In this document: piece after piece, positions 3,757 to 35,221 of the stretch
How the letters are laid out: the number at the start of each line of letters is the position of its first letter
How positions within the stretch are numbered: the first letter of the stretch is position 1
IMG/VR virus record: IMGVR_UViG_3300027833_000015
Span: 1 to 64,000 of that record
Strand: one strand, 5' to 3'
Source: a virus
DNA: 64,000 bases
The notes under the pieces: model-generated
Databases searched by the model: none
What the model was told of the DNA's origin: nothing
What the model saw: only the letters and a program-made list of their open reading frames with translations
Made by a program: the position numbers and the translations under genes

Positions 3757-4370
3757 TATCGCGACCACATCGCGAAATTGTAGCGACCTGTTCTGATCAT
3801 GTTTGGTTTATTGCGCTCTTGATACTTCTCATTGCATATGTCCATGGTGATATTGAGCATCGGTCCAAATCCTTCCATGGATATTTCGATCGACGGGTCA
3901 TCAGTCGCCATGTAGTCATCACGCCAATGGATTCGATCTGCTTTGATCAACTCCGAAAAGAAGTGAAAAGTCGGTGTCCATACTGCTTGGATGACCTGCA
4001 ACGTTGCAGCATTTTCTACAGTAGGGACTGTTGTAGGGAAGTCGAAGCGTTTGCCGCTGATAGCAAATGCGCCATTGACAGTTGTGCCAACAGGTACATA
4101 GATATCCTGCTCGATGAAACGTCGGTATTCGAACTTGACATCAGCACACGATGTGCTGTTCCTATATCCTAGCACATAGGAGGTCATTGTTTCGTCGTTG
4201 AGGTAGCGGAGTTTTGGCCATCCATCTTGCTGGATGGTGACCTGCCACGTGTCAAACTCTGGGACATCTTCGGAGGAGTATGCTCGTTTAGTGTATACAC
4301 ATGCACCGCCAACGACAATGTACATGGTGAGCATGGCGATAGAAAAGCGAGCGTGATGGGTTAATTTCAT
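3756..4370 (-). CDS. Hypothetical protein with N-terminal signal or anchor
   Basis: 204 aa. After MKLTHHAR there is a hydrophobic segment (about 9-25), so the product is exported or membrane-anchored; the rest looks like a soluble, beta-rich domain with cysteines near residues 76 and 178. It is the first gene behind the promoter at 4396-4423. It lies among exported enzymes (metzincin, SGNH hydrolase), so an envelope role is plausible. No family recognised. Confidence 0.75.
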   Translation of the reverse strand: MKLTHHARFSIAMLTMYIVVGGACVYTKRAYSSEDVPEFDTWQVTIQQDGWPKLRYLNDETMTSYVLGYRNSTSCADVKFEYRRFIEQDIYVPVGTTVNGAFAISGKRFDFPTTVPTVENAATLQVIQAVWTPTFHFFSELIKADRIHWRDDYMATDDPSIEISMEGFGPMLNITMDICNEKYQERNKPNMIRTGRYNFAMWSR

Positions 4371-31607: not shown

Positions 31608-31784
31608 CTATAAATCCCACATCGTCAGTCTACCTTCGTACAGACCCCATCGCTGGTGCTTTGTTTCGAGGACGTTTCCGTTGAAGTACAGGATCTTGAC
31701 CTTTGCTGTTCTCATCTCATTATAAAGCGTTGACAGGTCATTATATTTCTCACGCTTTGGTTTGTAGTTTTTAGATTTGCTCAT
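31608..31784 (-). CDS. Hypothetical small protein, 58 aa
   Basis: Starts MSKSKNYKPKREKYNDLST, ends GRLTMWDL. It starts inside the gp46 C-terminus and its TAG directly abuts the operon promoter. Basic N-terminus. Function unknown. Confidence 0.72.
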   Translation of the reverse strand: MSKSKNYKPKREKYNDLSTLYNEMRTAKVKILYFNGNVLETKHQRWGLYEGRLTMWDL

Positions 31785-33507
31785 CGGACACCTTCTTGAT
31801 CTGAGAGAAGTTTTTCACTTTGGCGAATTCGATCTTGGCAGCAAACTTGCCTTCTAGTATCTCACCCTTGTGCGAGATAATGAACACGTTGGTGTCATCG
31901 CCCAACGTGTGGATGATCTTCAACAGGTTATCAATACCAGACTCGTCCAGAGAAGAGTCAAAGGTTTCGTCCAGTATCAACAGGTTGGTGCTGATGCTGT
32001 TCTTCATCTTGGCAATCTGCCTCCACGTGAACAACAATGCCAAGTCGATGCGCTGCTTCTCTCCCTCGGAGAAAGATGCGTATGAGAATGAATCCCTGTG
32101 ACGCGAACGGATAGTTTCTTCGAACTTTTCATCAAGGTCGAAGTGGACATAGAAGTCGAGGATAGACAGGTACTGATTAACCAGTTTGTTGATGACAGGC
32201 AGGTACTGCTTGATCACCTTAGTCTTGATGCCACTGTCTTTGAGCATCTCAGAGATGACCGTATTATATGCTGCTTGGTCATTCATCGTGTTGCGGTGAT
32301 CCATCAACTCGTGGTACTCTTTCATGAGCACGTCATATTCGTTATTCGCAGTTGCGAGGTCAGACGCACCACCACTCAGGGAAGCAATGTCAGCGCGATT
32401 CTTTTCTATGTTCTTATTGTGTGTCGCGATAGTCTGAAGATTGCCCTGTACATTCGTTAACAGAGATTGAACCTCCCTCATCTTCAACTCGTACTCTGTA
32501 ATATTAACAGTCACCTCATCACGGGAGGTTGCAACCTCTGCACCAGCAGACTGTAACTCTGCTGCTTGCTCTTTTGCTGTCTTCAGTTTACTTTCCTTCA
32601 GGGAAACGTCGATGTCTTGGTCGCAGGTCTCACAGTGATCATTCACCTCATAGAATTTAGCAGTCTTGACCAATGCTTTGATCTTTGTATTGAACTCTGA
32701 CTCGAAACCATTGAGTCGGGCGAGTTGCTTGCGTTGATCTTCCAGTAGTGGAGCGATCTCTAGACTTATATCATTCGCCTTGCTTTGGTTGGTCGCATTC
32801 TCACCAACGAGTTGTTCGATCTCAGCAGTAGTCTCAGCAATGTAGTCGTCTTTCTGTTTCTTGGCATCGTGATTCAACTTTGAAATGTCGCGGATGTATT
32901 TCTTCTGCGAGTCAGTCTTGGTTTCGTTTATGGCAATCTTGTGGTACACAGCGTTGACCTGTTCCTTCAACGTTGCGTTCTTCTCTTTGAGCAGACCGTT
33001 CATCTTCGAGAACACACCAATATCCAGCAGGTCTTCAATCACGTCACGACGATTCAGGGCAGACAACTGCATGAATGGCACGAACGATGAGGAACCGAGT
33101 ACAACCACTTGGTGGAAGGTCTTGTGGTTCAACTTGAGGATGTTCTGCTCGAGGACTTTCTGATACTCTTTGTTGTGCGAGTTCTGGTTGATCATCGTAC
33201 CATTGGCATAGATCTCAAACTTGACTGGTTTGATACCGCGCACAACTTTGTACTCTTTGTTGCCTATGGCAAACTCAACCTCAACCTGCATGCCCTTGTT
33301 GTTGATAGAGTTTACCAACTGTGCCTTGCTTATGCTTCTGTGTGACTTACCAAACAGACCATATGATATGGCATCCAGCATAGTCGACTTACCAGCACCG
33401 TTCTGACCAACGATCAGGGTGTGCTCACTTTTGTTCAGGAATATCTCCGTCCAGTTATCTCCCGTTGATAAGAAATTCTTGTATCGGATGGTCTTGAAAA
33501 TAATCAT
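31771..33507 (-). CDS. 46: gp46 recombination nuclease subunit (SbcC/Rad50-like)
   Basis: 578 aa. ATPase of the gp46/47 exonuclease that resects DNA ends for recombination. Walker A VGQNGAGKSTML (about 34-45), long coiled coil with a CETC zinc hook near 290, ABC signature FSEGEKQRIDLALL, Walker B NLLILDETFDSSLDE, and H-loop ISHKGE. Size and layout match T4 gp46. TAATG overlap with gp47. Confidence 0.96.
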   Translation of the reverse strand: MIIFKTIRYKNFLSTGDNWTEIFLNKSEHTLIVGQNGAGKSTMLDAISYGLFGKSHRSISKAQLVNSINNKGMQVEVEFAIGNKEYKVVRGIKPVKFEIYANGTMINQNSHNKEYQKVLEQNILKLNHKTFHQVVVLGSSSFVPFMQLSALNRRDVIEDLLDIGVFSKMNGLLKEKNATLKEQVNAVYHKIAINETKTDSQKKYIRDISKLNHDAKKQKDDYIAETTAEIEQLVGENATNQSKANDISLEIAPLLEDQRKQLARLNGFESEFNTKIKALVKTAKFYEVNDHCETCDQDIDVSLKESKLKTAKEQAAELQSAGAEVATSRDEVTVNITEYELKMREVQSLLTNVQGNLQTIATHNKNIEKNRADIASLSGGASDLATANNEYDVLMKEYHELMDHRNTMNDQAAYNTVISEMLKDSGIKTKVIKQYLPVINKLVNQYLSILDFYVHFDLDEKFEETIRSRHRDSFSYASFSEGEKQRIDLALLFTWRQIAKMKNSISTNLLILDETFDSSLDESGIDNLLKIIHTLGDDTNVFIISHKGEILEGKFAAKIEFAKVKNFSQIKKVSDEQI

Positions 33508-34568
33508 TAAACAACGTCCTGTGATTGTGCTTCAGTCATGAGGTCAAGGACTTCACTTTTAATACGTTCCTTGTTGAGTACAGTCTCGACATTATCGACA
33601 TATGCGCTGAGAAGTGAAGAAGTGTCTTCGACCTCGAGTCCATCGTCAGCAACGTTTGTACCTTCAAACTCGGAGAAGTCCTCTTGTATCTTGAGGTCAT
33701 ATGTGTCACGCTGTTGTATGCGATCAATGAATCGATCGAACGTGAACGAGTCTGCTTTCTTGATGACAACAACCTTGACGAATTGCTTGTCGAACCGAGC
33801 AGTGTCATACTCGCTGTAATCATTCTTGGTGTCATCATAGTAGACGCGCTGGAACAATGTCAGTGGGTTTTGTACAGGAAGCAATTCACGAGTATCCGTA
33901 TCAAGGATGTGGAAGAACTTATCATCGTGAGCATCGTTCCAGAAGAACTCCATCTGCGAACCAAGATAGTGGATGTTTTCTTGGTTTGACTTCACGTGGT
34001 AATGACCAGACAGAACCAACTCGAAACGGTGCAGGTTCTCAGCAGACATACCGTGTGTACAAGGCACACCGCGCAGCATGTCAAACCCATTGAGTTCGAA
34101 GTGACCGCCAATGACATCTGCCTTACAGTTGACAAGGAAGTCCATACACTCTTGTTCATTCTCAGGACAGATCCACGGAACAAGACCAACCTTCATGCCA
34201 TCGTAATCAAGTACAGAACAGTCCTGAACGATGTTGACTTCGTTCATGTAGTGACCCAGCAACTCCTTCAGGGAGTTTAGGTCGTTTGTGTTCTTGTAAT
34301 AGGTGTCGTGGTTTCCTGGAATTATATCCATGGTGATACCGTCAGAACGTAAACGCTCAAGGAACACTTTGCGGTTGCTGTTCAGTGCCTTGAAGTTTAT
34401 GAATCGACGGTTCTCATAGTAGTCGCCCAAGTGCAGTATCTGGGTGATGTTGTTGTCATTCAGGTAGGGAAAGAACACCTCGTTGTAGAAGCGTTCTTGG
34501 TACTCTATAAAAATGTCACTGCTGTTCCTGATACCACAATGTGTATCATTTAGGATTGCGATCTTAAT
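33507..34568 (-). CDS. 47: gp47 recombination nuclease (SbcD/Mre11-like), apparent ATT start
   Basis: 353 aa. Metallophosphoesterase partner of gp46. Motifs: DTH (about residues 8-10, in LNDTHCG), GDYYENR, GNHDTYYK, GGHFELNG and SGHYHV. The first ATG/GTG in frame is the GTG at 34478, but starting there would lose the essential D-x-H. The frame continues upstream to ATT at 34568, preceded by GAGGAG at correct spacing, and an in-frame TAA (the gp55 stop) lies two codons further up. So initiation at ATT (AUU) is the best reading: (M)KIAILNDTHCG. A sequencing error of ATG is the alternative. Confidence 0.9.
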   Translation of the reverse strand: MKIAILNDTHCGIRNSSDIFIEYQERFYNEVFFPYLNDNNITQILHLGDYYENRRFINFKALNSNRKVFLERLRSDGITMDIIPGNHDTYYKNTNDLNSLKELLGHYMNEVNIVQDCSVLDYDGMKVGLVPWICPENEQECMDFLVNCKADVIGGHFELNGFDMLRGVPCTHGMSAENLHRFELVLSGHYHVKSNQENIHYLGSQMEFFWNDAHDDKFFHILDTDTRELLPVQNPLTLFQRVYYDDTKNDYSEYDTARFDKQFVKVVVIKKADSFTFDRFIDRIQQRDTYDLKIQEDFSEFEGTNVADDGLEVEDTSSLLSAYVDNVETVLNKERIKSEVLDLMTEAQSQDVV

Positions 34569-34571
34569 AAA

Positions 34572-35159
34572 TTACTCCTCGAAGAAAGCAGAGAGGTCAG
34601 AATCAACTCTCACTGTGCGCTTTGTTACCATTTTCTTCTTATAGTCTTTTATCTTGGTATCGTTTTCTTTGACATCGTCAATCCTGCGTCGCAGGTTATC
34701 GACAAATGATTGCACTGCCTTGGCGACCTGTGGATCTTCATTCGGGTCAACCATAAACTCTTCCAGACCAGACTCAGCAAGATAGTTCAGTTTGACATCT
34801 TGTTGACGCTGCTCTTTCTTGATGCGTCGAAGGAAAGCATACCATGCAATCTGGGTGAAGTAACCAAACGCATTTGGTTTGCCCTTGCGTGTTGCTGCTT
34901 CGACGTTATAGTTCTTGCATGCGCGGAGACAGTTCTCAACAGCATCCATGACCATCTCTTCACGATAGGTGTACCGCACAAAGTTAGACTTGTGTGACAA
35001 TCCTTCAGAGATCTTCAGGAAGCACTCAGCAACGTAACGTGGCATCTGTGGTATCTTTTCTCCTGCTGCTTCTGCCTCACGGACAGATATAACATGATCT
35101 ACAACTGATTGTGAGAACAGGGCATTATTAACATAATGTGGGCGTTCGCTGGGTTTCAT
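34572..35159 (-). CDS. 55: gp55 late-transcription sigma factor
   Basis: 195 aa. Recruits host RNA polymerase to TATAAATA-type late promoters. HYVNNALFSQSVVDHV and ISEGLSHKSNFVRYTYREEM match the T4 gp55 core, with NAFGYFTQIAWYAFLRRIKKEQ as the sigma region 2-like part. The C-terminus SDLSAFFEE corresponds to the T4 gp55 clamp-binding epitope SLDFLYE. It precedes gp47 and is the first gene behind the 35193-35221 promoter. Confidence 0.95.
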   Translation of the reverse strand: MKPSERPHYVNNALFSQSVVDHVISVREAEAAGEKIPQMPRYVAECFLKISEGLSHKSNFVRYTYREEMVMDAVENCLRACKNYNVEAATRKGKPNAFGYFTQIAWYAFLRRIKKEQRQQDVKLNYLAESGLEEFMVDPNEDPQVAKAVQSFVDNLRRRIDDVKENDTKIKDYKKKMVTKRTVRVDSDLSAFFEE

Positions 35160-35192: not shown

Positions 35193-35221
35193 ATTGTACA
35201 TCAAGTAGTATGTAATGTCAA
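35193..35221 (-). promoter_or_regulatory. Sigma70-type promoter of gp55-gp47-gp46
   Basis: TTGACA (35221-35216), 17-bp spacer, TACAAT (35198-35193), AGAGTT. The -35 contains the TGA stop of the 138-aa gene. Confidence 0.86.

Follow-up and report, generated by a model that had tools for sequence, protein, structure and literature searches.

A probable AUU start codon for the SbcD/Mre11-type nuclease gene gp47 of a marine T4-like phage, with rare starts recurring in its relatives

The gene gp47 of a marine T4-like phage probably begins at a genuine AUU codon, a weak start that would throttle the synthesis of gp47, and hence of gp46, in an operon with gp55 as its first gene and a conserved promoter of the sigma-70 type (probability about 0.8, as judged from sequence comparisons). 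The window, i.e., the whole stretch of 64,000 nucleotides analyzed here, is part of a viral record of 153,883 bases. The mechanism of rare starts is not itself new, since AUU and its kin are established for infC, pcnB, cvfC1, and ccpN; what appears to be new is that rare starts recur in a single phage gene and that they are linked to a recombination nuclease. Starts at AUU, AUC, or AUA are known for only a handful of bacterial genes and are missed by gene callers limited to ATG, GTG, and TTG, and in such phages gp47 would be annotated as a truncated gene without catalytic motif I. The features on which the argument rests are the following:

35193..35221, minus strand: promoter-like TTGACA-N17-TACAAT upstream of gp55, with a similar site in the same place in 11 of 11 relatives checked
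34572..35159, minus strand: gp55, late sigma factor (PHROG 234, E=1.5e-49), in frame with gp47, with 3 nt between its TAA and the gp47 start
34575..34580, minus strand: GAGGAG, putative Shine-Dalgarno (SD) sequence of gp47, within the last gp55 codons (AGGA 7 nt before ATT)
34566..34568, minus strand: inferred AUU start codon of gp47, aligned with ATG, TTG, ATC, or ATA of relatives
34476..34478, minus strand: GTG at codon 31, the first NTG of the gp47 frame, past motif I and rejected as the start
33507..34568, minus strand: gp47, SbcD/Mre11-type nuclease subunit of 353 aa, with ATT as the probable start codon (PHROG 100, Pfam Metallophos)
31771..33507, minus strand: gp46, SbcC/Rad50-type subunit (PHROG 77, E=6.5e-163), its ATG overlapping the gp47 stop (TAATG)

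The gp47 start region and the identity of the protein

The earlier note on this DNA held that the gp47 frame reaches an ATT with GAGGAG six bases ahead, and every coordinate it gave was correct. On the minus strand, GAGGAG (34580-34575) is followed by the gp55 TAA (34574-34572), TTT (34571-34569), and ATT (34568-34566), so that six bases separate the end of GAGGAG from ATT, and from the gp55 stop the frame reads TAA TTT ATT AAG ATC GCA ATC CTA AAT GAT ACA CAT TGT GGT. The N-terminus read from ATT is IKIAILNDTHCG..., and the stop codon lies at 33509-33507. It was also confirmed that the in-frame TAA of gp55 lies two codons before the gp47 N-terminus and that the D-x-H motif precedes the first ATG or GTG; the first ATG, GTG, or TTG of the frame is the GTG at 34478, which lies beyond metallophosphoesterase motif I with its D8 and H10. 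The further assertion that no other start can include the motif stands for NTG codons and fails for ATC, which occurs in frame at codons 3 and 5. ATT is preferred over these two codons because of its homologous position, its SD spacing, and the starts of the relatives.

The protein belongs to the SbcD/Mre11-type nucleases, as indicated by a full-length profile match, the motifs, and the adjacent gene for an SbcC/Rad50-type partner. In profile searches, residues 2-350 matched PHROG 100 ('SbcD-like subunit', E=3.6e-92), and the Pfam Metallophos match was above the cut-off (E=3.3e-08). The catalytic motifs D-x-H, GD, GNH, H, and GHxH are all present, and D8, H10, G48-D49, G85-N86-H87, H156, and G188-H189-x-H191 were invariant among the nine proteins aligned. 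The nearest annotated relative is that of Phage C48C1, filed under Kyanoviridae (62% identity). A PDB sequence search with gp47 at E 0.001 gave no match, and megablast against cultured phages found no relative.

Rare starts at the same position in relatives

The start of gp47 was compared in 80 IMG/VR relatives, and IMG/VR was scanned for ATT, ATC, or ATA (ATH) at the start position; these sets of relatives may omit records very near the window. Such a comparison had been proposed in the earlier note, and it revealed ATT, ATC, or ATA at the same position in 15 other contigs. Sixteen stretches came out of the scan, and 15 of these, from 13 IMG sample numbers, have no NTG start at the homologous position or ahead of it. 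ATC was found in L088/L003 (97% identity), L091/L004 (94%), and L090, and ATT in L092/L028 (77% identity) and in nine near-identical contigs of one lineage with 46% identity to the window (L082-L086, L093-L096), while L087 and L097 carry ATA preceded by ATC. L092 also has a TTG shortly before the motif, at codon 6, that could serve as the start instead. L089 was excluded as ambiguous, having an ATG two codons upstream of its ATC. There, near 3946 on the reverse strand, AGGAG is followed by the ATG after only 1 nt and by the homologously placed ATC after 7 nt, and the ATG may be too near AGGAG for use. Three other candidates (L063, L072, and L287) were rejected on account of an ATG, TTG, or GTG one codon upstream. 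A literature search on the habitat of the ATH contigs found no paper naming their sample numbers.

The closest relative of the window, L002 (99% protein and 96.9% nucleotide identity), begins gp47 at ATG, which indicates that AUU is not indispensable and that the weak start is not strictly kept. No ATH start was found in IMG/VR among gp47 sequences of the cyanophage/pelagiphage type (TDxHFG, NDTHFG), where at least 120 NTG stretches matched the TDxHFG type. The gp47 genes of the cyanophage records L318 (S-8S53) and L319 (ACG-2014d) begin at TTG, and a weak start is thus not confined to the clade of the window.

A gp47 tree was built with FastTree from 167 non-redundant rows, with the start residue left out. 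The rows comprise 124 with ATG, 33 with TTG or GTG, and 10 with ATT, ATC, or ATA. The ATH state requires five changes on this tree, at least four of them forced by well-supported branches, and the ATH starts fall into four lineages, three of which lie among or beside TTG-starting relatives. The picture is of a start that is repeatedly weak, with apparent shifts between UUG and AUH, sometimes AUG, and no direction implied.

To this can be added a test of gene specificity, in which stop-to-stop frames were compared across 15 related records or loci, ten of them long (up to 153,883 bases), and conserved frames with 70 codons or more were flagged when a relative had its canonical start at least 6 codons upstream of the first NTG. 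Among the 1036 conserved frames, those flagged were gp47 in the record of the window (G000), L003, L004, G006, G007, and G013, together with a 99-aa antisense frame (L004, 5179-5475) that was set aside as an apparent conserved shadow frame. Thus, gp47 is the sole gene needing a non-NTG start among the 1036 conserved ORFs tested; because the records were chosen for gp47, its own rate is biased upward, while the zero among the other genes is unbiased. By the same test, with N-terminal gaps of at least 6 codons, no AUU start was found elsewhere in the genome of the window. Candidate ATH starts of gp55 were false alarms, all with an upstream ATG.

These data bear on the alternative that AUU is used and the weak start is simply drift, tolerated because a good SD sequence and coupling offset it, with no regulatory role. 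This explanation is quite possible, although we consider it to have the smaller share of the probability. Close relatives vary between ATG, TTG, and AUH, as drift would allow, and an SD sequence is nearly always present with AUH and TTG starts and less often with ATG (mean matched length 4.2, 3.9, and 2.3, respectively, uncorrected for relatedness). Drift that is blind to the gene, however, would hardly strike at least four gp47 lineages while sparing about 1000 other conserved ORFs of such phages. Elsewhere, a change to AUU is extremely rare: across 36 groups of prokaryote genomes, AUU replaced 1 of 61,358 ancestral AUG and 1 of 5,080 GUG starts (PMC5622118), a rate that is a lower bound because the survey depends on annotation. 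The case is of interest because such starts occur in four lineages of one phage gene and in none of the other conserved genes tested in these phages.

The gp55-gp47-gp46 operon

The genes lie on the minus strand in the order gp55, gp47, gp46. Both the window and all eleven relatives examined have a TTGACA-N16/17-TATAAT-like site immediately before gp55, and because this sigma-70-type site is conserved, the three genes are probably transcribed from one strong host-type promoter. The gene of a late sigma factor thus appears to be itself driven by a near-consensus predicted promoter of the host, sigma-70 type. The gap between the gp55 stop and the gp47 start is 3 to 5 bases in three of the four ATH lineages, an arrangement typical of re-initiation after termination, and 93 nt in that of L097, from which it follows that coupling to gp55 is neither general nor essential. 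In L097, this gap holds an inverted repeat at about 1780-1803 (CCTGATCA-CACAC-TGATCAGG), absent from the 96%-identical L089, that is possibly a terminator or a regulatory hairpin.

The close junction would also allow leaky termination at the gp55 UAA to yield a gp55-gp47 fusion, for which no start codon would be needed. In the window and in L088, L092, and L094-type phages, the two genes do share one frame and only one stop codon separates them. In L090 and L091, however, gp55 is in a different frame, in L097 it stops 93 nt ahead of gp47, with a TGA in frame before the latter, and the very codon in question is ATG or TTG in most relatives. Moreover, UAA as a rule leaks less than the other stop codons, and we regard readthrough as very improbable.

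The partner gene gp46, in the same loci, starts at ATG in 143 cases, TTG in 6, GTG in 5, and ATH in none (n=154). In L005/G003, gp46 apparently starts at TTG and its junction with gp47 is altered, so the partner gene also occasionally has a weak start.

Selection on the N-terminus

Codons 2-30 of gp47, which precede the first NTG, showed pN/pS of 0-0.18 against eight relatives, compared with 0.04 to 0.22 for the rest of the gene, and L097 and L089 differ in codons 2-69 by 28 synonymous and 7 non-synonymous changes. Because codons 2-30 are under purifying selection, translation must begin upstream of codon 2. As gp55 and gp47 share a reading frame in the window, the gp55 stop is separated from the conserved N-terminus by TTT and ATT only, and the in-frame TAA just upstream limits the start to one of these two codons.

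An error of sequencing or assembly concealing a true ATG, which the ATG of the closest relative might suggest, is very unlikely given that ATT, ATC, or ATA without an NTG start recurs in 15 separately assembled contigs with 13 sample numbers, including the nine near-identical ATT contigs. Equally hard to credit is a start at GTG 34478, the first canonical start and the choice of a gene caller, as the resulting protein would lack motif I even though selection on codons 2-30 is comparable to that on the rest of gp47, D8 and H10 are invariant, and the first NTG of L097 comes 66 codons after ATA.

Taken together, recurrence in four lineages, purifying selection on the N-terminus, and uniform SD spacing strongly support the claim of the earlier note that gp47 begins at AUU. 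The spacing is AGGA-N7-AUH in 7 of the 10 AUH rows, with GGA-N7 in L092 and a distance from AGGA of 8 nt in L090 and 9 nt in L091.

A possible throttle on nuclease synthesis

While use of AUU for gp47 initiation is strongly inferred, its consequences are argued by analogy. The GAGGAG at the end of gp55 is well spaced to position a 30S subunit on AUU, and re-initiation by ribosomes finishing gp55 three bases upstream would probably help. Because fMet-tRNA pairs poorly with AUU, initiation would nonetheless be inefficient and gp47 scarce, and through the TAATG overlap gp46 would be kept low too, so that both nuclease subunits would be lowered relative to gp55. That the rare start recurs in gp47 only, in four lineages, suggests that the weak start keeps the nuclease scarce. 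Reduced output of gp47 from AUU would be in line with S. aureus reporters, in which AUU and AUA starts gave ~10% of AUG output in poor medium (PMC13009471). Rare starts are repressed by IF3 in other systems, and from this work in E. coli and Streptomyces gp47 may likewise be sensitive to IF3 (PMC5472188; PMC2268962).

Two other factors were discarded. The only tRNAs found in the phage were tRNA-Asn and tRNA-Pro, which speaks against a phage-borne initiator or isoleucine tRNA as the cause, and RNA structure masking the start is not indicated by the predicted folds from -30 to +30, which are weak and do not exceed those of ATG relatives in strength (mean -4.1 vs -4.5 kcal/mol in the latter).

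A broader and more speculative reading, which we think rather unlikely, is that marine T4-like phages recurrently throttle gp46/47, the start being repeatedly driven to UUG or AUU/AUC/AUA so that nuclease synthesis depends on ribosome state (IF3 level, gp55 termination). If so, recombination and host-DNA degradation would be tied to the translational condition of the host. The natural series of ATG, TTG, ATT, ATC, and ATA before nearly the same protein offers a test of the purpose of rare starts.

Comparison with known systems

T4 gp47 and E. coli SbcD belong to the same family as gp47 of the window and have an SbcC-type partner gene, and unlike it they start at ATG. A weak start as a general trait of SbcD was rejected, as E. 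coli sbcD and sbcC and T4 gp47 all begin at ATG. Initiation at AUU in a T4-type phage has a precedent in T4 gene 26, for which Nivinskas et al. 1992 reportedly described an internal AUU start; that start, however, gives a shorter second product, whereas the AUU of gp47 would be the only start of its gene.

Among bacterial genes, the earlier note had rightly cited infC and pcnB, whose AUU starts are established in E. coli (PMC4245954); for pcnB, PMC13009471 cites Binns and Masters 2002. The infC gene (IF3) starts at AUC in Streptomyces (PMC5472188) and at AUA in S. aureus (PMC13009471), where cvfC1 and ccpN also start at AUU-type codons (PMC13009471). Like gp47, infC has a conserved ATH start with an SD sequence and is often misannotated, and its synthesis is inefficient, as that of gp47 would be; but it forms an autoregulatory loop of IF3 itself, while the phage nuclease gp47 is not known to be connected with IF3. 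The product of pcnB is, as gp47 would be, a nucleic-acid enzyme kept low by an AUU start, although pcnB is chromosomal and experimentally shown, whereas gp47 is a phage operon gene behind gp55. In Streptomyces, sigR has a GTC start repressed by IF3 (PMC5472188), and the proportion of two products encoded in one operon there depends on a rare start, as it would for gp47; its codon is GTC rather than ATH, and sigR lies upstream of its partner rsrA, whereas gp47 lies downstream of gp55. With an N-terminus beyond the reach of NTG codons, recurrence in relatives, and its SD spacing, gp47 fits the ATH genes of the infC and pcnB type.
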